From assembly GCA_910574835.1 (NCBI GenBank), contig CAJTDE010000020.1:1-64000 (forward strand): a stretch of 64,000 nt of DNA, given 5' to 3'. The first letter of the stretch is position 1, and each line of letters begins with the position of its first letter. The notes beneath the pieces were generated by a model, which was not told the origin of the DNA, did not search any database, and worked only from the letters and a program-made list of their open reading frames with translations. Below, one piece after another: positions 30,396-45,887 of the stretch. The DNA comes from Clostridia bacterium. GTDB taxonomy: Bacteria > Bacillota > Clostridia > Lachnospirales > Lachnospiraceae. The position numbers were made by a program, and so were the translations under genes.

Positions 30396-31940
30396 TCACC
30401 CCGCAACCATCCTCCAGAGTAAATATCCCGCCACAAGCACAACTACTACAAGCATCTGCCGCACAAACACCTTCTCCGCCTTCTGATCCCTGACCTTCCT
30501 CCGCTCCTCCGCCTCCATCACAGCCCCCCAAGGACTGTACCTCTGCGCCCGTAGCGTAATCCCTCTCCCGTCCTGCCCCAAAGCAGCAAGAAATCCCCTC
30601 CAATTCTCTTCCAAAAGCCGCGTCCCTCTCCGAAAATCCTCCTCCAAAGTCCGCCCTCCAAGCATCTGAAAAAAACCGGCCTCCTCCGAATAAGCCCGTT
30701 GACTGCGGTACGCCGCATCCCCCTTCTTCTCCAAAAACAACCGATACGCATAAGCCAGCCCTTCCGAAGCCGCCCGCTGCGCATCCTTCGTTTTCTCATA
30801 AATCCCTGTCGTATGGTAATAAGCCTCATAGGCCCCCTTCTGATTGAGATAATAATCTACCATTTGATTTACCAGACTTTTCACAGGCGAAGCCATGTCA
30901 CCGGACCGCCCGTTCCCGGAAAGATAAATCTCACCCTTAATAGAAGTAAGCGCCGCCAGATACCCCACAACTTCCTGATTCCCCTTCAAGGTCCCCATCC
31001 CCTCCAGAATACGGCCGCTCTCACCCAAATGTCTGGCAAATGCATCCGCCCGGACAAGCTCATCTATCCCAAAGCCTCCGCTCTCCCGGCTGCCTCCCCG
31101 AGCCTCGCCAAAAGCCTGACTCCGCTGATTCATCTCCAACTGCCCTGACTTCCTGTGTGCGTCAAACTCCTGACTGACCCGCACATTCCTTCCGCCACAA
31201 GCCTGATACACACTCCCCTCCTCGCCAAACGCCTTCCCGGAGGCTTCCGTCACACCATGAGAAGATACGGCAGAAGCATGTCCCTTCCCGACGCCGCTGC
31301 CCGAAGAAAAAAAGCGCTCTGCCGCCTTGGGAGAAATACTCTCCCCCGTAGTCCGCTTATACACACGATGCCGAATCTGATCAATGGTCTCACGCTGTCC
31401 CATCCGTTCCAGCAAGGAAATAAGATTCTTAAGCTTCACTTCCAAAACGAGATTCAGCTTTTCGGAAAGCACCGCATCCAACCGCTCCTTCTGTACCGTT
31501 TGCTCCTGACCCGTGGTATGAATCAGCACCGCCTCCAGCAAGGCCAGATACAGCCTGGACAATTCCTCCAGATCCTTAGACAGATTCCCCGAAGAAGAGG
31601 GCTGCCAGTTCAGAAGCGCCTCCCAAAGCTCCTGCTCCATCTCCAGAATCCATCGAAGATTTGCCTCCATAAGAAGCTTCCCCTCAATGCCGAACCACTT
31701 GCTCTGTCTGGAAAGCTCCGGTGTATCCCGCTGCTCCCGCTCCTCACTCTTTGACTCCGAACGTTCCTCCTCCAGCTTTGCCCTGGCCTCCTCCGCCTGT
31801 TTTGCAGCCTGTGCAACCAGTACCCGTCCGGCCTCCAGCTCCATCAGCTTTCTCGCAGCCCTGTTTTCCGCTCCCGTGGGCGCCGGCTGCGGCTGTGCTT
31901 CTATCCCCTTTGTATTCGTACCTACGCCAACCTTCTCCAT
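30396..31940 (-). CDS. Uncharacterised tail-anchored protein in the motility region, 514 residues
   Basis: Charged, Ala/Glu-rich coiled-coil N-terminus (about 28-75), a helical middle part (about 85-200), a Ser/Gly-rich linker (about 205-290), a second helical part (about 295-480) and a single C-terminal membrane segment (VFVRQMLVVVVLVAGYLLWR) with only four residues after it. The bulk would face the cytoplasm. I do not recognise a family. AAGGGGAAGGG precedes the ATG. Its position behind two chemoreceptor genes and a SigD-like promoter suggest a role in motility; this is inference. Confidence 0.75.
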   Translation of the reverse strand: MEKVGVGTNTKGIEAQPQPAPTGAENRAARKLMELEAGRVLVAQAAKQAEEARAKLEEERSESKSEEREQRDTPELSRQSKWFGIEGKLLMEANLRWILEMEQELWEALLNWQPSSSGNLSKDLEELSRLYLALLEAVLIHTTGQEQTVQKERLDAVLSEKLNLVLEVKLKNLISLLERMGQRETIDQIRHRVYKRTTGESISPKAAERFFSSGSGVGKGHASAVSSHGVTEASGKAFGEEGSVYQACGGRNVRVSQEFDAHRKSGQLEMNQRSQAFGEARGGSRESGGFGIDELVRADAFARHLGESGRILEGMGTLKGNQEVVGYLAALTSIKGEIYLSGNGRSGDMASPVKSLVNQMVDYYLNQKGAYEAYYHTTGIYEKTKDAQRAASEGLAYAYRLFLEKKGDAAYRSQRAYSEEAGFFQMLGGRTLEEDFRRGTRLLEENWRGFLAALGQDGRGITLRAQRYSPWGAVMEAEERRKVRDQKAEKVFVRQMLVVVVLVAGYLLWRMVAG

Positions 31941-35844: not shown

Positions 35845-37068
35845 TTACTCCATTCTTATATTATTTTCATTTTCTTCCTGTGAATCCGGCGGCGTATCCG
35901 CGGGGCTTTTCTTTCGTTTCAGCTTTTCTTTGAGCTGCTCCCGCTTTTTTGCAAAAAGCTGCTTCATCTTGGAAAACCAGATTCTCCACAGCCGAAGCAG
36001 GCAGCAAGGCAAATACAGCCATGAGAATTTTTTCAGAACCGGAAACATCCCTGCCATATAATCCTTAGGAGGAAACAGGGCTTCCTTTTCCCGATTCATC
36101 CACTCTCTTCGCCGGTCTCTTTTATAAAAATCCGCCACATCCTGTAGCAGCGGAAGAATTTTTCCGCTTAACTGTCTCCCCTGTTCCCCTCTGGAGAGAA
36201 TGTAAGCCTCCATAGCATTGTAGATCTCCATCTCGTCACTGATTCCGTTTTGAAACCAGATATCGCCCAGCTTTAAAAGCCGCTCCGAAAATTCCAAAAT
36301 CTTATACCGTTTGAGAACTTTGTCCACATAAGGCCAGTTCAGTTCTTCCTTGTGGGCCTTTTCATACAGCCAGAAGTCCAGCACGGTCCGAACCGTTGCC
36401 CGGCCAAGGGCATAGTCATTGGCCGCCTTGCCTGCCATATAAAGGTAGGCTTCCTCCTTATCAAAGCACCGGAGATAACGGTAGCCTTTTTTCTTGGAAT
36501 ACATGCGCACCGGTGAATCAAAGTAGCGCTCCATCTTTTCATTGACAAACTTTATTTTATCATAAAACTTCACATAGACGCCTGGTATTTTATAGTATAA
36601 AATTCCTTCGTCCTCCCGGTTCTCCTGCGGCTCGTAATCCATACTGCGCATAATGGTGTCAATACGTACCAGATCCCCTTTGGAAACTAAAATATGGATA
36701 GCATCCATTCTGCGCATCTCCTTCTGGGGGTAAAGCTCCCTCAGGCCGGTGCCCTCCAGAATGAGAAAATGTATCTTCTTGCGCTCCAGCTGCCAGTGCA
36801 GCACCTCCTCCGCACTTTGATAGCCGGGTACGTTTTTCAACTCCCTCTGATAGCTCTCATAGAACAGGCCCTTGATTTCCTTGTCCATCTCTGAACTTAA
36901 ACCCAGGATGCCGAGCCAGCACAGATTCGCTACCTGATTGGTATCCGCCAGCCGGTAGATGGTCCTCCAGGGCATCAGACTGCCGGACATGACAGGAACC
37001 TTCTTCTGATTCATGACCGCCGATACCAGCAAAAGCAGATACCGGCGATCCTGCTGCAATACGTTCAT
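35845..37068 (-). CDS. Nucleotidyltransferase-family protein (PF14907-like)
   Basis: 407-residue cytoplasmic protein. The middle part has FLILEGTGLRELYP and the acidic RRMDAIHILV, in the place of the metal-binding acidic residues of this nucleotidyltransferase-like family; the second half is helical and ends in a Lys/Glu-rich tail. Here the usual LKG-D-D pattern is altered (LEG, MDAIHI), so activity is uncertain. The substrate is unknown. It lies between flagellar and chemotaxis genes, so modification of a surface or flagellar component is possible. The ATG at 37068 is preferred over a TTG one codon upstream. Confidence 0.65.
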   Translation of the reverse strand: MNVLQQDRRYLLLLVSAVMNQKKVPVMSGSLMPWRTIYRLADTNQVANLCWLGILGLSSEMDKEIKGLFYESYQRELKNVPGYQSAEEVLHWQLERKKIHFLILEGTGLRELYPQKEMRRMDAIHILVSKGDLVRIDTIMRSMDYEPQENREDEGILYYKIPGVYVKFYDKIKFVNEKMERYFDSPVRMYSKKKGYRYLRCFDKEEAYLYMAGKAANDYALGRATVRTVLDFWLYEKAHKEELNWPYVDKVLKRYKILEFSERLLKLGDIWFQNGISDEMEIYNAMEAYILSRGEQGRQLSGKILPLLQDVADFYKRDRRREWMNREKEALFPPKDYMAGMFPVLKKFSWLYLPCCLLRLWRIWFSKMKQLFAKKREQLKEKLKRKKSPADTPPDSQEENENNIRME

Positions 37069-37173
37069 CAAAGGAACCTCTCTCTTCCTATTAAAGAATT
37101 CCCCTCACAAAAATATTTCCCCTCGTGAAGCGTTTTCCCGTGCCCCTCGCCTTACAATTCGGGACACAAGAAG

Positions 37174-37201: not shown

Positions 37202-38503
37202 TTATACGAAATAATCCATCATCAGCCCAAGGGCCATATAATTACTCATATTATAAGCGCCTGCTTTGGAAAACGTATTCAAAAAATGATAGCCGTCCGT
37301 GTTCTGGCTGCTCTCCGCCTGCCGCACACTGTTCTGCACCAGTCCGGCGGAATTGGCCCGAAGCCCGGCGCTTCCTCTGTCAAAGGCTGCCTGCGCAATG
37401 CCGTTCCTGCCGGAAATCACATCCCGCACCAGATCCTCGTCCTTCTCCAGATTCTTCGTAAGCTTCTCCTTATCAAAGGAAAGGGTTCCGTCCTTATTGG
37501 CGGTAATTCCCGCCATCTCAAGAGACTGCTCGGAGCCTAAGCTTCTCACCATATTCCGAAGCTGCCGGCTGACCTCCGATCCCTGACCCGCATTGTTCCG
37601 CAGGAAATCCACCGCTTTGTTGTAATTATTCACCAAATCTTCCACACCGGAGATCAGCCGCTCACTGTCCTCCTGAGGCTCAATATCCGCCTTACCTTCC
37701 TTCTTAAGCGTAGCCTGAATCCTTCCCATATCCAGAGAAATCTCATTGGAGGAGGAAACATAATTGCGGCTTGCGCCGTTCTCCGTAACGGAGTACTTTG
37801 CATTCTGAGCCTCCTGCGCCGTCTCGCTCAAGCCCTTGGCAATCCCGGTGTCGCCGTTTACCTGAAAGGTATTGCCCTCCCCGGTCTTTGTCCCTGTAAT
37901 CTGAAGAGACGCCTCCCCGTCCTTCACCACCACATTCGCCTGTACACCGCTCTTGGCCCGGTTGATCTGACTGGCCGCCTCCTCAAGCATCTCCTGGTTC
38001 GTCCTCAATCCGCCGCCCTTCTTCCGGGCATCCACCTGCACAAACACACCGGACACGCCGCCGGAAGCGCTCTTGGACCGGATACTGAAATTCATACCGG
38101 AGGAAGCCTTCGCCTTTGCATTCACGCCCGCGCTCTGATTCATCTGAGCTTTCGCCACCTGGCTCACATTAACGGAAAGCTTCTGTCCGTATCCGCTGCC
38201 GAAACGCTCCTTAGCCGACAGCACACTGTTATCGGAGCTGCCGAGCTTTTTCGCATTCGCCGCACCGGAGGAATTTGATCCCCGCAGAGAGTTTGCGGAC
38301 TGCATCAGATCCGTCATCTTACTATTATAATTCTTGAGGAAATTCAGACTGGAATCCTTGTACGTCCGGTTCACACGCTGCACCGGAGACACAGCCTGAC
38401 GATTTGAATGATAATTATTCAGCGCCTGCTGCAGCCGAAGCTGATTGATGGAGGATGTGTAATTCATATAACTCATAGATGAACCAATCCTGCCAACTGC
38501 CAT
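37202..38503 (-). CDS. FliD-like flagellar protein (second FliD-type gene)
   Basis: 433-residue protein. The middle has FliD-type repeats (FVQVDARKKGGG, ANVVVKDGEASLQITGTKTGEGNTF) and the C-terminal half has the FliD C-domain pattern (LVNNYNKAVDFLRNN, GITANKDGTLSFDKEKLTKNLEKDEDLVRDVISG). It lacks the N-terminal SGLASGLD motif of true FliD, which the larger gene at 40.7 kb has. It could be an alternative filament cap or a junction protein. The ATG at 38503 has AGGGGG at 8 bases; an ATG two codons upstream is also possible. A structured leader precedes it. Confidence 0.72.
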   Translation of the reverse strand: MAVGRIGSSMSYMNYTSSINQLRLQQALNNYHSNRQAVSPVQRVNRTYKDSSLNFLKNYNSKMTDLMQSANSLRGSNSSGAANAKKLGSSDNSVLSAKERFGSGYGQKLSVNVSQVAKAQMNQSAGVNAKAKASSGMNFSIRSKSASGGVSGVFVQVDARKKGGGLRTNQEMLEEAASQINRAKSGVQANVVVKDGEASLQITGTKTGEGNTFQVNGDTGIAKGLSETAQEAQNAKYSVTENGASRNYVSSSNEISLDMGRIQATLKKEGKADIEPQEDSERLISGVEDLVNNYNKAVDFLRNNAGQGSEVSRQLRNMVRSLGSEQSLEMAGITANKDGTLSFDKEKLTKNLEKDEDLVRDVISGRNGIAQAAFDRGSAGLRANSAGLVQNSVRQAESSQNTDGYHFLNTFSKAGAYNMSNYMALGLMMDYFV

Positions 38504-38531
38504 ATCCATTGCCCCCTTTCGAATCTATCTT

Positions 38532-39797: not shown

Positions 39798-40202
39798 TTA
39801 CTTCTGATAAAACGAATCCTTCCCAGCCAGCTTCACGCTGACCACCCGATCCACTTCCCTAATCTTCTCCAGGTTCCTCCGAATATTATTCCCTATCTCC
39901 CCGATCTTCTTTTCTTCAAAGGAGGCTTCCTTCGCAGCTTCCCGTTCTCCCTTAAGCAGAGCCAGAATACCCCCGCGCTCCAAAGGCCCGGCACATTCCA
40001 GAAGCATATAAATCTTCTCTTCGCTCTCCGAAAGGTGATCAATCTCCTCCTGGCGCATCCCCAGTAACATCTGAGCCGCCACCCGGTCATCCCTTGACAG
40101 GGCATCCGCAATCTCCTTTGTCACACGAAACACTTCATTTACCGCTCCATAGCGCCTATGCATCTGCTTAAGAAGCTCCGTCCACAATTCCTGTTCTGCC
40201 AT
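39798..40202 (-). CDS. FlgN/FliT-like flagellar chaperone candidate
   Basis: 134-residue, almost entirely helical protein (QEEIDHLSESEEKIYMLLE and a Lys/Glu-rich second helix), with the size and helical-hairpin look of FlgN/FliT export chaperones. Sequence motifs for this group are weak, so the call relies on its place 13 bases after fliS. Confidence 0.5.
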   Translation of the reverse strand: MAEQELWTELLKQMHRRYGAVNEVFRVTKEIADALSRDDRVAAQMLLGMRQEEIDHLSESEEKIYMLLECAGPLERGGILALLKGEREAAKEASFEEKKIGEIGNNIRRNLEKIREVDRVVSVKLAGKDSFYQK

Positions 40203-40215
40203 TCTTTTTGTCCTC

Positions 40216-40587
40216 TCAATTATTGAGCATTCTGCTGGCTTCCCGAAACGCCTCCCGAAGCTCCTCCACCAGCTCTTTCAGTTCCGCAATCACCTTAGGG
40301 TTCCTGCCTGCACTGATGCGGGACAGCTCATAAATGAAGAAGTCATACATCACGCTTAATTCTCTGCTGATGGCATAGCTCCTGTTCAGAGTTGCCTTCA
40401 AATACTGCACAATCTCTCTGGAACGGGTTACGGACTGTTCAAACAGTTCTTCATCCTTTACCTCCAATGCCAATTCCGCCCTGGTAAGCCGTTTTACCAG
40501 CTCGTCAAACAGGAGAAGGAGCATCTCGCTGGCCGTCATCGTGTTGACGGACTGGGTTTTATACTGTTGATAACCGTTCGCATTCAT
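40216..40587 (-). CDS. fliS: Flagellin export chaperone FliS
   Basis: 123-residue helical chaperone with the family features YQQYKTQSVNTMTASEMLLLLFDELVKRLTRA-type N-terminus and a C-terminal helix ELKELVEELREAF. It binds unpolymerised flagellin in the cytoplasm. The ATG at 40587 is preferred over a GTG one codon upstream. It follows fliD, the usual order. Confidence 0.94.
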   Translation of the reverse strand: MNANGYQQYKTQSVNTMTASEMLLLLFDELVKRLTRAELALEVKDEELFEQSVTRSREIVQYLKATLNRSYAISRELSVMYDFFIYELSRISAGRNPKVIAELKELVEELREAFREASRMLNN

Positions 40588-40655
40588 CACTGTTTCACTT
40601 CTTACCCTTTCTTTGCTCCACTCTCAAGGAATGAAACGTCTTATGGTATGCCGCA

Positions 40656-43076
40656 TTAGAAGCCCATTCCGCTTAAATAGCTGCTCTGAGAGTTCATCTG
40701 AGAAATCAGCGTCTCTAACTGTGTAAACTGGCTGATGTAGCGATCCTGCTCGGATTTTAAGCGGGTCTTCAGATTCTCCAGAATCTTATCTATATCGTCA
40801 ATCTCACTTTGCAAGGAATTGCTCTTCACACTGGTGGGCGCATGGGTGGAACCTGCTTTTTCAATCAAAATACCCTTTGTTGCACCCATAGTCTTCACAT
40901 ACTTATCCATTGTGTTCTTCAAATTAGATGCAATACCATCTGCTGCGGTAAATGCTTCCTTTACTGCGTCCGGATTCTTCTCCAATGCTGCTTTAAACTT
41001 CGTCTCATCAAAGGAAAGCTTACCATTATCCTGCCAGCTGCCGGATACGGAGATTCCCATCGCTTCCATTGCCTGCTGATCCTTCGGTAAAATTGCCCAC
41101 CGCAGATCGTCAGCCAGGCCGCGAAGCTCACTGGAACCGAAGAGGATACCGGCCTTCGCCTTTTCCTCCCAGAGCTTGATCTCGCTCTCGCTCATTTCCT
41201 TCTTCTGATCATCCGTCAGCGGAAAATAATCATTGTCCGGGCGGGTGCTCACATGAGAGTTCACAAGCTCCAGAATCTCATTGTATTCCTTTACCATATC
41301 GGAAATGGCGCTTATCATCTTCTCGGAATTGACATTGGTTTCAAAAGTCACCGCGTCCTCCGGGTCCGTGCTAATTGTGCCGTCCTCTTTATAGCCGAAC
41401 TCTCCCTTGGCTGTCACATTCAGACCGTCAATAGAGAAGCTGTTGCTTCCTCTGGTCAGCTCAACTATTTCATCGGAACCCGCATACTTCACGGCAACGA
41501 TAGCATCCTGACCGTCTGTGACAGTATAACCCTTGCCGCCATCTGCGGGATCTTGTTCCCCGAACAAAAGCGCTGCCGCGTCGCCGGCATTCGGATCATC
41601 GCTGGCCTCTATCTTGATAGAACCGGAAGCGCCTCCTACGGTAGATTCCATCACAAACTTATCCGCAGTGGACATATAGGAGATTTTCACTCCGGCGTCG
41701 GACTCATTAATCTTCTTCATAATGGAAGAAATGGAATCCTTACCCGTAAATTCAAATTCCTTACCATTGATCTTCATCTTGTAGGTCTTGTCAGGGTCCA
41801 TACTCTCCGCACCCTTCAAACCGGAATTTTGAATACTTGTATTAAGATTCAGACGATTGGATTCTCCTGCCACAATTCCCAGGCCGCCATGAGAGGCCAT
41901 AAGAGACTGGCTTCCTCCCGTAATAGTCAAGGTAGAAGTGGTATCTTCTACGGAATTGCCATTCTCATCTTTCTTATTCGGCACGGTGGTCTTAAAGGAA
42001 AGCTTATTGTTTTCATCCAGATCAACTTCCACTCTTCCCTTTCCAAAAGCGGCGTCCAGACTTTTCTGCAGTTCTTCCTTCACATACTCCAAACCGCCGT
42101 CTCCGTCCTTTGCATTGGCTTCAATGTCCGCTGCTGACGGAAGTTCAATCGATTTGTTGGTACCGTTGTAGCTGAATGTCAAGCTCTTTCCGCCAAAACG
42201 CTGAGCAAGTGTCTGCTTCTCCGACAATTCCGCCGGCTTACCTGCAAGGGTTCCTCCATTTGCCTCACTCTTAATCTCCAGGCCGTTCTTTTTGTCTTTT
42301 TTGGCTTGGTCGTACAGCTCCTTGTAGCCCATAGCTTCCATAGCGGAGCCGCCGGTCAAGGTCACCTCATTCCCTTTACTGGAAATGGTAAATCTTCCTC
42401 CGGCTGTTCCGATTTCCACAAAATCGGCCAATGTTCCCTTCTTGGAAGACCCCGTATAGCTTACTTCTACCTTGGCCATTGCCTCATTGATTGCCTTAGC
42501 CGCATCTTCTACATTATCAAAAGGCTCTCCTGTTCCGTAAGGAATGGAAACGCTGTAGCTCTTATCTCCCACCTTAAAGGTAAGGCTCTTCCCGGCCAAT
42601 GTGCTGATATCCATCTCGCCGGTCTCAATCCCGCTGGTTGTCAGCTTCCGGTCGGACACGGCCCCGTTTGACATCATCTGGGCATTCTTTGCCATCTGCT
42701 TGATACCCATAATCGTTACGTTTGCCGCCGCTGTCTTATTTGCCCCGGTTACGCCGATAAACTTACTGTTCTTTCCTATCACAGATGTGCTGGCCGATCC
42801 CCAGAAAGCATCACTGAACAGGTTTGTACTGGAAGACATGGTAGATGTATACTTATTGGCAAATGCAATCATCTTATCACTGATATTCCGATATGCTTCC
42901 TGCTGCCACTCAAGTTTCGTCTTTTTCTGCTGCTGTTTGGTGATCTTCGTCTGTGTCCCCGCGGTCATTCCCTCGATCAATTCGTCTCTGTCCAGTCCGC
43001 TGGCCAGTCCGCCGTATCCTCTCAAGCTTGACATTGCCTTGTTGGTAGATCCACTTAAACTGCTTATGCTAGCCAT
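40656..43076 (-). CDS. fliD: Flagellar filament cap protein FliD
   Basis: 806-residue cap protein, longer than many FliDs. The N-terminus has YGGLASGLDRDELIEGMTAG, the FliD hallmark; the centre holds repeated beta-rich domains; the C-terminus has the conserved EYNEILELVNSHVSTR and LRGLADDLRWAI regions and a final coiled coil (LKTRLKSEQDRYISQFTQLETLISQMNSQSSYLSGMGF-type end). It is exported through the flagellum and caps the filament. The ATG at 43076 follows AAAGGAGTGG. A SigD promoter lies upstream. Confidence 0.95.
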   Translation of the reverse strand: MASISSLSGSTNKAMSSLRGYGGLASGLDRDELIEGMTAGTQTKITKQQQKKTKLEWQQEAYRNISDKMIAFANKYTSTMSSSTNLFSDAFWGSASTSVIGKNSKFIGVTGANKTAAANVTIMGIKQMAKNAQMMSNGAVSDRKLTTSGIETGEMDISTLAGKSLTFKVGDKSYSVSIPYGTGEPFDNVEDAAKAINEAMAKVEVSYTGSSKKGTLADFVEIGTAGGRFTISSKGNEVTLTGGSAMEAMGYKELYDQAKKDKKNGLEIKSEANGGTLAGKPAELSEKQTLAQRFGGKSLTFSYNGTNKSIELPSAADIEANAKDGDGGLEYVKEELQKSLDAAFGKGRVEVDLDENNKLSFKTTVPNKKDENGNSVEDTTSTLTITGGSQSLMASHGGLGIVAGESNRLNLNTSIQNSGLKGAESMDPDKTYKMKINGKEFEFTGKDSISSIMKKINESDAGVKISYMSTADKFVMESTVGGASGSIKIEASDDPNAGDAAALLFGEQDPADGGKGYTVTDGQDAIVAVKYAGSDEIVELTRGSNSFSIDGLNVTAKGEFGYKEDGTISTDPEDAVTFETNVNSEKMISAISDMVKEYNEILELVNSHVSTRPDNDYFPLTDDQKKEMSESEIKLWEEKAKAGILFGSSELRGLADDLRWAILPKDQQAMEAMGISVSGSWQDNGKLSFDETKFKAALEKNPDAVKEAFTAADGIASNLKNTMDKYVKTMGATKGILIEKAGSTHAPTSVKSNSLQSEIDDIDKILENLKTRLKSEQDRYISQFTQLETLISQMNSQSSYLSGMGF

Positions 43077-43199
43077 ATTAACCACTCCTTTTATCTCTTT
43101 TTCTTTGTTGCGATTCTCCTGCAGCGCCTCTTCCGGGGACCCTCCAAAGCAGAACCGATATTTCATTTTTATACATTTTCGAAATTACTCTGTACTTAT

Positions 43200-43227
43200 T
43201 TATCGGCATATAGTATACTTTAGTTAA
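43200..43227 (-). promoter_or_regulatory. SigD-type promoter of fliD-fliS
   Basis: Minus-strand GCCGATAA (43200-43207) is a full match to the SigD -10 box; TTAA (43224-43227) lies 16 bases upstream. It is 124 bases from the fliD start, in the divergent gap shared with the ParA gene. Confidence 0.75.
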
Positions 43228-43291
43228 TACTTGAATTTATTTTTATGACTGACAACGATTTTCAGAAATTAGAGAAACGGAGGAATTTACC

Positions 43292-44083
43292 TTGGCTACT
43301 ATCATTGCACTTACCAATCAGAAGGGTGGGGTTGGCAAGACCACAACTTCAAGTGCTTTGGCAGCCGGACTTACCAGAGAGGGCAAAAAAGTACTTGGCA
43401 TTGACCTGGACCCCCAGGGAAATTTTGGGTTCAGTCTCGGCCTTGATATCGAAGATTCAAAGACCATTTATGAGGTATTTAAATATCAGGTTCCTATCGA
43501 AGCTGCCATTCAGCCTACGGAATACTGTGATCTCATTACTTCCAATATTCTTTTAAGCAGCGCGGAGCTGGAGTTTAACGAGCCCGGAAGAGAGCTGATG
43601 CTGAAAAGGCTTCTGATGCCGATAGAGGATCGCTATGATTTTATCATCATCGACACGCCGCCGGCTCTGAATATTCTGACGGTCAATGCCTATGCGGCGG
43701 CTGATTATCTCATCATTCCTATGGTTGCGGAGATTCTCAGTATCGTGGGCGTTGCACAGATTAAGGAAACCATCAATTCCGTCCAGCAGTCCGTGAATCC
43801 CAACCTTCATGTCCTGGGGATTGTACTGACAAAGTTTAACCGGCGTACCATTCTGGCCCGGGAGGTGAAGGAGATGGCGGAGAATATTGCCGCCCAAATT
43901 CACAGCTCCGTATTCGAGATACAGATCCGGCCCAGCGTGACCGTTGCGGAGGCTCCGGCCCACGGAGAGAGTATTTATGACTATTCTCCGCTTTCCAAGC
44001 CCTCCTTAGATTACAAGGCATTTGTACGGGAGGTATTGTATAAGATCAGTCAACAGGAGGTTCTTCATGGCACGCAAAAGTAA
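43292..44083 (+). CDS. ParA/Soj-family ATPase
   Basis: 263-residue P-loop ATPase with the deviant Walker A KGGVGKTT (11-18), DLDPQGN and IIDTPPAL motifs. ParA proteins bind DNA or membrane and position cargo. The start is TTG with GGAGG 8 bases upstream. No ParB gene is adjacent; the overlapping next gene encodes a ComFB-domain protein that probably takes the partner's place. Position next to fliD suggests a link to motility, but chromosome partitioning or another cargo is possible. Confidence 0.9.
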   Translation: MATIIALTNQKGGVGKTTTSSALAAGLTREGKKVLGIDLDPQGNFGFSLGLDIEDSKTIYEVFKYQVPIEAAIQPTEYCDLITSNILLSSAELEFNEPGRELMLKRLLMPIEDRYDFIIIDTPPALNILTVNAYAAADYLIIPMVAEILSIVGVAQIKETINSVQQSVNPNLHVLGIVLTKFNRRTILAREVKEMAENIAAQIHSSVFEIQIRPSVTVAEAPAHGESIYDYSPLSKPSLDYKAFVREVLYKISQQEVLHGTQK

Positions 44084-45068
44084 TAAGACGGCACATGTTT
44101 TGAATTTACTCTCGGGAGGGGAACCGGAAAAGGAAGTGCAGCAGCCTCAGGAAGCAAAGACTGAGGCTGAAACTACGACTGTGAAAGAAAAACCGGAGCC
44201 GGCGAAGGCCGAAGCTGCTCCCGCTCCGGCTCCGACGCCTGCAATCACCCAGGCGGCCGCACCGGAGGTTCCTTCTAATATTTCGATTATTGACAACGGA
44301 GCGAAGGAAGCCGACGCCTTAGCAGCGCAGATTCATGAAGAGCTTTTGAAGGAGCTGGAAAAAGAAGAAGGGGCTGCGGTGACCGCTTCGGCTCTTGTGG
44401 AAGAGCCTTCAAAAATGGAAGAGGGTTCCCAAAAGGTGGAAAATGCAGCCATATCGGAAGCTCCTAAGCCGGAAAACATTCCTGCCGCGGAGCCTCAAAA
44501 AACTGAAACTCCTTCCGCTTCTGCTGCCGAAGCGCCTAAGGCTGAAATACCCGCTGCTCCTGCTACAGAAGCACCTAAAGCTGAGATACCCGCTGCTCCT
44601 GCTGCCGAAGCGCCTGAGGCTGAAATACCTGCCGCTCCTGTCACGGAACAACCCAAGGCTGAAACTCCTACTGCTTCTCCGGAAGCTTCTAATGCAGAAA
44701 TTTCCGCTCCCACCCCGGCAGAACCGGAGCCGGAACAGGAAGAAGTTTTAGAGCTTTCACCCGATCCGCTGACAAAACCGGAACCCCCGGCAGAACCGGA
44801 ACCGGATTATGTGATGCTGAATGTGATGCAGCGTATAGTGGAGGACAAAATCATTTATTTTATGAAACAGTTTGAGGTCTGTACCTGTCCGCGCTGCAAG
44901 GCGGATACAATTGCCCTTACGCTGAGCGGGCTTCCGTCCAAATATAAAATTGTAGATAAGTTCGCGGTGGATCCCCTGGTGAGCTACTACACCGGCCGGC
45001 TTATCAGCCAGGTTACGGTGGAGGCTTTGAAGGCTTGTACCCAGGTAAAGGACAATCCCCGCCATTGA
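44067..45068 (+). CDS. ComFB-domain protein with basic N-terminal peptide and Pro/Ala/Glu linker
   Basis: 333 residues in three parts: a basic N-terminal peptide (MARKSNKTAHVLNLLSGG), a long low-complexity linker (about 20-245) that includes 13-residue tandem repeats (about 155-195), and a ComFB-like domain (about 247-333) with CTCPRCKAD (Cys272, 274, 277) and LPSKY. ComFB domains have been reported to bind cyclic dinucleotides in other bacteria. Basic N-terminal peptides are a known way of stimulating ParA ATPases. The ATG lies inside the end of the ParA gene (17-base overlap, CAGGAGG upstream), so the two proteins are made together. Confidence 0.8.
   Translation: MARKSNKTAHVLNLLSGGEPEKEVQQPQEAKTEAETTTVKEKPEPAKAEAAPAPAPTPAITQAAAPEVPSNISIIDNGAKEADALAAQIHEELLKELEKEEGAAVTASALVEEPSKMEEGSQKVENAAISEAPKPENIPAAEPQKTETPSASAAEAPKAEIPAAPATEAPKAEIPAAPAAEAPEAEIPAAPVTEQPKAETPTASPEASNAEISAPTPAEPEPEQEEVLELSPDPLTKPEPPAEPEPDYVMLNVMQRIVEDKIIYFMKQFEVCTCPRCKADTIALTLSGLPSKYKIVDKFAVDPLVSYYTGRLISQVTVEALKACTQVKDNPRH
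44529..44678 (+). repeat. 39-bp in-frame tandem repeats in the ComFB-fusion linker
   Basis: Three full 39-bp units (44529-44567, 44568-44606, 44607-44645) and a partial fourth encode EAPKAEIPAAPAT-like peptides. They are less uniform than the 42-bp kinase repeats, so older. Confidence 0.85.
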
Positions 45069-45158
45069 TATACCTTCCCGGTCCCGGCAATTATCCCCGG
45101 TATTTGCCGGACAGGCAGAGAATTTATAAGAAATACCTACAGAAATCGGAGTCATTTT

Positions 45159-45887
45159 ATGGAACACGAAGCACATACTTCCTATACGGATATCAATACG
45201 CTCCCGGAGATACCGAAAGATTTTGCAAACCAGGCTTATCAATTTCAAGAGCTGATGATGATGTACAATTGCGCCATCCGGGAGGTCCGTACCAAGCTTG
45301 AGGTTTTGAATGACGAGCTGAGCATCCGCCATAAGCGCAACCCCATCAAGCACATTACCTCACGCATCAAACGGCCTTTGAGCATTATTCAAAAGCTGCA
45401 GCGTTATGACGCTCCCTTCACGGTGGAGGCTGTGGAGGAAATGCTGAATGATGTGGCCGGCATCCGGGTTATCTGTTCCTTTATTGATGATATTTATGCC
45501 ATTGCGGATATGCTGCTTCAGCAGGATGATATTACACTTATCCGCCAAAAAGATTATATTCAGGCTCCCAAGCCCAACGGCTACCGCAGCCTGCACTTAA
45601 TTGTGCAGATTCCGGTATTTTTTTCCGAGCAGAAGCGAAATATGCGTGTGGAGGTACAGATCCGCACAATCGCTATGGATTTCTGGGCCAGTGTGGATCA
45701 TCAGCTTAAATATAAGCAGGATGTGGAGAATCCGGAGGCTGTTTCTGCCGAATTGAAGGAATGTGCGGAGATAATCGCCCAGACAGATGCCAGGATGCTT
45801 GCGATCAAGAATCAGATTTACTGCAATGAAAAGCTTCACAAGTCCTGGCAGGATAAATTTGAAAAGCTGGAGATACCATTAAAATAG
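45159..45887 (+). CDS. relQ: GTP pyrophosphokinase, RelQ/YjbM-type small alarmone synthetase
   Basis: 242-residue single-domain (p)ppGpp synthetase. Family motifs are SRIKRPLSIIQKL, DVAGIRVICSFIDD, PKPNGYRSLH and the catalytic Glu region VEVQIRTIAMDFWASVDHQLKYK. There is no hydrolase or TGS domain. It transfers pyrophosphate from ATP to GDP/GTP. CGGAG precedes the ATG. It lies 90 bases after the ComFB-fusion gene and ends at a strong terminator, so the three plus-strand genes probably form one unit. Confidence 0.93.
   Translation: MEHEAHTSYTDINTLPEIPKDFANQAYQFQELMMMYNCAIREVRTKLEVLNDELSIRHKRNPIKHITSRIKRPLSIIQKLQRYDAPFTVEAVEEMLNDVAGIRVICSFIDDIYAIADMLLQQDDITLIRQKDYIQAPKPNGYRSLHLIVQIPVFFSEQKRNMRVEVQIRTIAMDFWASVDHQLKYKQDVENPEAVSAELKECAEIIAQTDARMLAIKNQIYCNEKLHKSWQDKFEKLEIPLK

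Follow-up and report, generated by a model that had tools for sequence, protein, structure and literature searches.

The window analyzed here, a stretch of 64,000 nucleotides (nt) from a Clostridia bacterium of the family Lachnospiraceae (assembly GCA_910574835.1, contig CAJTDE010000020.1, positions 1 to 64,000; host genome of 5.0 Mb), carries next to the flagellar gene fliD a gene for a ParA ATPase, which overlaps by 17 nt a gene for a protein ending in a ComFB domain, designated ComFBf in this work. A sequence-only reading of the window had combined these two genes, divergent from fliD on the minus strand, with a gene for an alarmone ((p)ppGpp) synthetase and had proposed that the three together position a cargo, perhaps flagella. 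All three genes were verified at the coordinates given in this text. The pair is composed of the following elements:

43279..43284, plus strand: ribosome-binding site GGAGGA of the ParA gene, read from the sequence
43292..44083, plus strand: flagellar ParA ATPase, 263 amino acids (aa), TTG start; PF13614 (AAA_31), E=1.6e-54
43925..43945, plus strand: ParA residues 212-218, a remodelled stretch with R213 gained and T217 at the position of the Soj DNA-binding Arg
44067..45068, plus strand: ComFBf (ComFB fusion protein), 333 aa; PF10719 at residues 252-331, E=1.1e-8, 35.4 bits versus a cut-off of 25
44067..44111, plus strand: putative ParA-partner peptide MARKSNKTAHVLNLL at the ComFBf N-terminus, residues 1-15, with a predicted short helix at 7-15
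44316..44387, plus strand: second conserved helix of ComFBf, residues 84-107, whose motif is retained also in members without ParA
44808..45065, plus strand: ComFB domain with CxCxxC and a C-terminal His; predicted local distance difference test (pLDDT) mostly 94-97; Foldseek match to 4wai with a target-normalized template modelling score (TMt) of 0.74

The start of ComFBf was set at the ATG at 44067 and not at that of the longer open reading frame from 44022, because the N-terminal motif is conserved in relatives.

The occurrence of ComFB proteins was surveyed with the PF10719 profile in 61 relatives and in 392 genomes of the order, and the domain was present in 25 and 139 of them, respectively. 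The proteins were of two kinds, short (about 90 aa) versus long. Inspection of the regions around 60 PF10719 sites placed the long ComFB by fliD-fliS, with ParA usually upstream and divergent from fliD. The exceptions, G359 and G377, have a long frame with its ComFB away from fliD and carry both FlhF and FlhG; they were excluded from the flagellar ComFBf set, and G314 and G083 represent other ComFB types. At L202 and L096 (G280) and at L094 (G335) a second ComFB, a short one (88 aa), is encoded within a few kb of ParA–ComFBf.

A single pattern for the ComFBf N-terminus, KT[AED]HV[LM][NG]L[IL], was scanned over one genome per species in 84,980 species. It matched 232 stretches, 182 of which were confirmed; all counts out of 80 loci in this text refer to the best 80 of these 182, and the scanned loci partly overlap those of the 392-genome sample. 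A ParA of the flagellar type was found directly upstream of ComFBf in 80/80 loci, which had been retrieved through the ComFBf N-terminal peptide alone, and fliD was present within the locus in 74. Four of the six loci without fliD (L149, L155, L157 and L212) reach a contig edge on the fliD side. The named carriers are mainly Lachnospiraceae and include Lacrimispora, Muricomes, Sporofaciens, Mediterraneibacter and Anaerotignum, also Pygmaiobacter and Pseudoflavonifractor; the closest ComFBf locus in the named collection belongs to Clostridia bacterium isolate B90_2 (98 % in ComFBf). In Lachnospiraceae and Clostridia related to them, ParA and ComFBf are a conserved two-gene unit close to fliD-fliS, and the pairing, the gene overlap and the divergence from fliD described in the sequence-only reading were all borne out.

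The distribution of the pair was compared with that of FlhF and FlhG, the known regulators of flagellar pattern. FlhA, flagellar ParA and FlhF were scored in the 392 genomes, with at most six candidates per genome for ParA and FlhF. The ParA threshold (E<=1e-65) was picked after a gap between 1e-79 and 1e-54 had appeared; the FlhF threshold (E<=1e-35) gave 196 genomes, 185 of which reach the curated cut-off. FlhA was detected in 237/392 genomes, among them all 33 that carry the flagellar ParA. FlhA occurred together with FlhF in 194 genomes, with ParA in 33 and with neither in 10, two FlhF genomes (G174 and G308) had no FlhA, and not a single genome combined FlhF with ParA. Fisher's test for ParA/FlhF exclusivity among the FlhA genomes gave p = 7e-32, a value that ignores kinship and treats related genomes as independent. 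These counts describe the 392-genome sample, in which some genomes are incomplete.

A deeper search of 18 genomes (13 with ParA and 5 with ComFBf only) revealed no FlhF above the cut-off, and the sub-threshold matches in them were rejected as FlhF for their resemblance to FtsY/Ffh. In genomes of family f17 (G052, G280, G205 and others) frames of 445-505 aa match the FlhF model below its cut-off, several of them near a second, Ffh-like match; we read these long-frame GTPases as FtsY, short of proof. With a single FlhG query, matches of 43-100 % identity were obtained in 8/8 FlhF control genomes, and none of the 38 ParA or ComFBf-only genomes showed an FlhG, the MinD-like matches in them being at most 27 % identical or absent at the threshold. 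In four FlhF genomes that were read, flhA, flhF and flhG are followed by a PilZ gene and, as judged by eye, a CheB-like gene. Replacement of PilZ/YcgR by ComFBf was also considered and rejected, PilZ being above the cut-off in 40/46 genomes of both kinds.

The ten FlhA genomes lacking both FlhF and ParA comprise five with ComFBf only (one of them, G349, is 78 % complete) and G069, G144, G169, G182 and G200; of the latter, three are at most 84 % complete and two have FlhA partial or in pieces. The exclusivity with FlhF and the failure to find FlhG thus make the pair a marker of a separate set of flagellated Clostridia. Found in the sampled relatives only in flagellated species without FlhF and FlhG, ParA–ComFBf may stand in for these two proteins.

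The N-terminal peptide of ComFBf could be followed through genomes that seem to have lost ParA. Residues M1, K7, T8, H10, V11 and L14 are invariant in two alignments, both built from motif-bearing members. In five genomes (G349, G205 and G292 of one genus, G394 and G413 of another) ComFBf lies at its usual place without ParA, and the best ParA anywhere in them is 40-43 % identical, the level of Soj paralogues, whereas orthologues reach at least 51 %. The peptide is gone in all five: in G292 the ComFBf N-terminus, MSAQKNNKTPNTTDF, keeps a KNNKT remnant and the hydrophobic HVLxL part has disappeared. The second motif, as judged by eye, and the ComFB domain are retained in all five.

Among the genomes found by profile, 32 had peptide and ParA and 5 had neither; in one further genome, G345, ComFBf ends at a contig edge, which hides the peptide, and ParA is on another contig. 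After pooling with loci found through the peptide (not through ParA) and removal of duplicates, defined as identical ComFB ends, there were 91 cases with both, 5 with neither and 0 mixed. This pooled count is limited to rows with the ComFB Cys pattern, so that it leaves out at least L070 and L074, two loci with both peptide and ParA. A tree built from 86 ComFB domains united all 43 long domains in one group on a long stem (support 100/99). The five ParA-less members appeared at two places in it: three next to members of the same genus that carry ParA (99/99), and two, with weaker support (94/76), next to the ParA-bearing G316. Most simply, ParA would have been lost twice, with decay of the peptide each time. 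The decay of the peptide where ParA is missing, while the second helix and the ComFB domain stay, speaks strongly, on evolutionary grounds, for a peptide that serves ParA, in agreement with the link between a basic N-terminus and ParA that had been suggested from the window. The persistence of ComFBf without ParA implies that ComFBf has a further task for which ParA is not needed.

The ParA protein was examined for a site that might accept such a peptide. Its model (pLDDT 88) is nearest to the solved folds of Soj/ParA, at 35-39 % identity (8ray: 39 %, template modelling score 0.87), in comparison to 16-17 % for FlhG. ParA begins (T/L/M)ATIIALTNQKGG, without an N-terminal extension or DQAxxLR helix (the FlhG of G061 has DQAQQLR), and ends, in the model, with a helix at 236-258 and a low-confidence tail; in FlhG/FleN a C-terminal helix targets the membrane. 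In Myxococcus xanthus ParA the site of the ParB peptide is known (PMC12462528), and 107 flagellar ParA rows (90 distinct) were mapped onto this protein together with 17 ParA paralogues recognized in 20 fetched stretches. The signature and P-loop lysines K11 and K16 and the motif-2 aspartates D38 and D40 were present in 107/107 rows. Pocket positions V116, L150, L152 and L155 are still mostly hydrophobic, Y81 and E117 were kept in 88 and 85 of the 107 rows, and position 82 was D or E in 106. Three positions have changed: D110 to L in 105/107, E176 to L, V or M in 107/107 and L187 to S or T in 98/107. The ParB-type pocket, assigned by homology, thus seems to be kept but re-cut, as would be expected for another peptide.

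The R238E variant of M. xanthus ParA is devoid of non-specific DNA binding (PMC12462528). The equivalent position is S, A, T, V or C in all 107 flagellar ParAs and R in 17/17 paralogues, and position 221 is Ala in 107/107 versus K, R or H in 17/17. Since the DNA-binding Arg is missing, nucleoid tracking by this ParA appears doubtful. On the other hand positions K158, K181, R190 and R213 carry a basic residue in 92-100 % of the flagellar ParAs but seldom or never in the paralogues, and with these new residues a surface for binding DNA or membrane could be rebuilt.

The possibility that the ParA works with a ParB encoded elsewhere, named in the sequence-only reading as one that would speak against its proposal, was contradicted by the genome itself, in which Soj and ParB form a pair of their own on another contig (ParB N-terminus LGKGLDSLI). 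With this pair present and ComFBf in the place of parB in 80/80 loci, a ParB partnership was rejected for the flagellar ParA; the comparison covered genes and did not include a search for parS sites.

ComFBf is predicted to be low in confidence or disordered at its N-terminus except for helix 7-15 (pLDDT about 61). The second helix, at 84-107, is modelled in blocks of pLDDT 73, 83 and 58, with I89 and L93 in at least 90 % of members, and is separated from the ComFB domain by a long linker rich in Pro, Glu and Ala, disordered in the model. The domain itself matches Bacillus subtilis ComFB (4wai) with a Foldseek E of about 1e-4 and, weakly, CdgR with cyclic di-GMP (c-di-GMP) (8hja, TMt 0.53). 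For B. subtilis ComFB a zinc site, in which three neighbouring Cys are joined by a more distant ligand, the fourth Cys, and the residues of the dimer have been described (PMC4381287). C272, C274 and C277 are present in 43/43 long ComFBs (rows selected by the Cys pattern), and the terminal H333, also in 43/43, stands at the place of the fourth Cys and is inferred to be a zinc ligand. Of the dimer residues, N252, D280 and Y293 are kept; Gln replaces E255 in the window, and Ser replaces N287.

The sequence-only reading had assigned the ComFB domain to a family reported to bind cyclic dinucleotides, and the ComFB of Synechocystis does bind c-di-AMP and c-di-GMP (PMC12313861). GGDEF proteins were found in 16/16 genomes tested, and the host genome encodes three such proteins. 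The polar cluster of the short ComFBs (Gly, Tyr, Lys, Gln and Asp, at window residues 299, 302, 304, 311 and 315) is lost in ComFBf. Sensing of a cyclic dinucleotide by ComFBf is possible by analogy and receives no support from residue conservation.

The remaining features of the locus are listed below:

40656..43082 (start approximate), minus strand: fliD, divergent neighbour of ParA; FliD_C 9.5e-37, FliD_N 3.5e-11
40216..40590, minus strand: fliS, after fliD; PF02561 3e-23
43201..43226, minus strand: sigma-28-like promoter TAAC-N15-GCCGATA facing fliD
45159..45887, plus strand: small alarmone synthetase (YjbM/RelQ-like), a genus-level neighbour outside the conserved unit; RelA_SpoT E=6.1e-35

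Sites similar to the sigma-28-like promoter of fliD were found in 16/69 relatives, and none faces ParA in the window. Since only 2/69 relatives have such a site before ParA, near background, whereas 16/69 have one facing fliD, a sigma-28 promoter driving ParA was rejected. Gene 39798-40202, beyond fliS, has no Pfam match. Further along the minus strand, downstream of fliD-fliS, a second, short FliD-like protein (37202-38509, 435 aa, FliD_C 5.2e-10) is encoded next to an ABC ATPase gene. A PF14907 nucleotidyltransferase-like protein (35845-37071, minus strand) lies in the cluster of flagellar and methyl-accepting chemotaxis protein (MCP) genes and has homologues near ParA–ComFBf in many relatives, and a 514 aa protein without a Pfam or NCBIfam match (30396-31940, minus strand) is encoded beside two MCP genes.

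On the opposite flank the pair is followed in many relatives by an operon which in L142 encodes EAL-HDOD, CheV, CheD, CheC and a FlgG-like rod protein. EAL-HDOD was present in 56, CheV in 52 and CheC in 51 of the 80 loci, and MCP genes are often near. The EAL-HDOD protein so frequently beside the pair (L142 7876-9174 and equivalents) is a possible second link to c-di-GMP.

In the window this flank is occupied by the synthetase gene, which begins 90 nt past the ComFBf stop and scores 175 bits with the NCBIfam YjbM-type model, below the curated cut-off of 320. The sequence-only reading regarded it as a RelQ-type synthetase completing the unit. The neighbourhood survey upheld the adjacency of ParA and ComFBf and not that of the third gene, whose presence at the pair is limited to 5/80 loci, every one from the genus of the window. 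G004, another member of this genus, and G028 have the EAL-HDOD operon behind the pair instead, and their synthetase homologues (60 % and 68 % identity, respectively) are located on other contigs; the host genome has two further homologues, of 55 % and 36 %. As a core component the synthetase was rejected; it is a neighbour at the level of the genus and lies outside the conserved unit.

Taken together, the data favour, at a rough probability of 0.6, ParA–ComFBf as a two-protein flagellar module of an ATPase and its partner, which sets flagellar number and/or placement and takes the place of FlhF–FlhG across a large clostridial branch. This reading is based on the conserved pair beside flagellar genes, its absence from every sampled genome with FlhF, the failure to find FlhG and the decay of the peptide without ParA. 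The pairing and the flagellar link, both seen in gene content and order, are well supported, and the flagellar cargo suggested earlier gains from the synteny with fliD and from the exclusivity with FlhF. Flagellar number or placement is the probable output since the module fills the gap left by FlhF–FlhG, but in detail the output, the matrix and the ligand are guesses.

In the proposed mechanism the ParB-type pocket of ATP-bound ParA dimers would accept the two peptides of one ComFBf dimer, and peptide binding would trigger ATP hydrolysis by ParA, which in turn would release the partners. The long linker would give ComFBf its reach, and the second helix and/or the ComFB domain would hold a flagellar component, passing the ATPase cycle on to it. 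The ComFB domain might be gated by a cyclic dinucleotide, by zinc or by neither, and ParA might act on DNA, on the membrane or on neither. A bolder version, tentative and in our opinion unlikely to hold in full, would make the pair a third class of flagellar-pattern regulator in which a Soj-derived ParA, taken off the nucleoid, and a ComFB protein that both activates the ATPase and senses a second messenger took over from FlhF–FlhG in a large branch of gut Clostridia and wired flagellar number directly to a cyclic dinucleotide.

Several observations weigh against a dedicated flagellar module. The exclusivity counts ignore phylogeny, and a very small number of events might account for them. Flagellar genes can be present without ParA, as in the five genomes that have ComFBf and FlhA but no ParA, FlhF or FlhG, and PilZ proteins persist in most ParA–ComFBf genomes. 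In L194 and L197 the pair occurs without fliD at the expected side, and the neighbours of the pair are equally chemotactic (CheV, CheD, CheC). Sigma-28-like sites are not conspicuous before ParA (2/69, against 17/1380 in random windows).

Other explanations overlap with the preferred one, and the confidences attached to them do not sum to one. ComFBf could be a FleQ-like effector and ParA its FleN/FlhG-like ATPase brake in a switch of transcription or assembly, without positioning as such. This explanation shares the pairing with the two-protein flagellar module and is a tenable one, if on the unlikely side. With the nucleoid-type Arg missing in all 107 ParAs and no membrane tail evident, a matrix for positioning is not obvious, and ComFBf persists without ParA. 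The ComFB homologue CdgR works via a transcription factor in Anabaena (PMC13075795), but no DNA-binding domain was matched by Pfam in ComFBf, and K158, K181, R190 and R213 could restore to ParA a surface for DNA or membrane.

The exclusivity with FlhF and FlhG could also be a lineage marker, if one ancestor lost FlhF/FlhG and happened to carry an unrelated ParA–ComFBf pair. The long ComFBs form one group, the counts take no account of descent, and the ParA genomes belong to two families (f1 and f17) of the sampled order. Family f1, however, has both states in different genera, the pair stays near fliD over a wide divergence, and no mixed genome occurs among the 237 with FlhA, which leaves this explanation rather unlikely. 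That the pair serves a chemoreceptor array, in the manner of ParC–ParP or PpfA–TlpT, and not the flagellum, we consider improbable: the pair abuts the EAL-HDOD/CheV/CheD/CheC operon in many relatives and MCP genes are often close by, but the genomes with ParA all have FlhA and none has FlhF, and fliD is in nearly every locus (74/80). A three-part unit with positioning tuned jointly by cyclic dinucleotides and (p)ppGpp, for which the gene order in the window, the GGDEF proteins and the ligands of cyanobacterial ComFB (PMC12313861) would speak, is very improbable given that the synthetase is confined at the pair to a few loci of one genus and missing there even in G004, that the 68 % homologue of G028 is on another contig and that the ComFB polar cluster is lost.

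The pair is a concrete, testable candidate for flagellar patterning in numerous Lachnospiraceae of the gut, some of which have been cultured. The way in which bacteria without FlhF and FlhG set the number and place of their flagella is treated as unresolved in the accessible text of a recent review (PMC12826062). No paper describing the ParA–ComFBf pair, and no published partner for this ParA subfamily, was found in the open-licence literature. The subfamily would gain a partner and a predicted binding peptide, together with natural loss-of-function controls, and ComFB, recently recognized as a family of cyclic-dinucleotide receptors, would gain a possible role outside competence.

In comparison with known systems, the pair is similar to FlhG/FleN (with FlhF) in that an ATPase of the ParA/MinD superfamily is tied to flagellar genes, in a complementary set of flagellated genomes. 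It differs in that its ParA is Soj/ParA-like and not MinD-like, has no DQAxxLR extension and is not accompanied by an FlhF GTPase (0/33 ParA genomes). With Soj/ParA–ParB (ParABS) it shares the catalytic residues, the fold, most of the ParB-peptide pocket and a partner whose basic N-terminus is followed by a hydrophobic helix; unlike in ParABS, there is no parB beside the flagellar ParA, the DNA-binding Arg is missing and pocket positions 110, 176 and 187 are changed.

ParC/ParP, PpfA/TlpT, McdA/McdB and PomZ/PomX are likewise systems of an ATPase and a partner with a basic N-terminus. Partners of ParA-type ATPases are said to contact the ATPase through a disordered basic N-terminus and to hold the cargo with the remainder (PMC10241942). 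The partner described here differs in belonging to the ComFB proteins, which the accessible part of that source does not list as partners of this kind. ComFBf resembles ComFB/CdgR in PF10719, in CxCxxC and the terminal His, in N252, D280 and Y293 and in the fold of 4wai and, weakly, of 8hja, but its ComFB domain forms the C-terminal part of a long and mostly disordered protein that has two additional helices, belongs to a separate long-stem group and has lost the Gly/Tyr/Lys/Gln/Asp cluster. In FleN–FleQ and BcsQ–BcsE an ATPase of the ParA/MinD type is coupled to a c-di-GMP-binding partner, FleQ being a transcription factor and BcsE acting in cellulose secretion. The ParA–ComFBf pair could represent the same kind of coupling, achieved with a partner of another family, ComFB.

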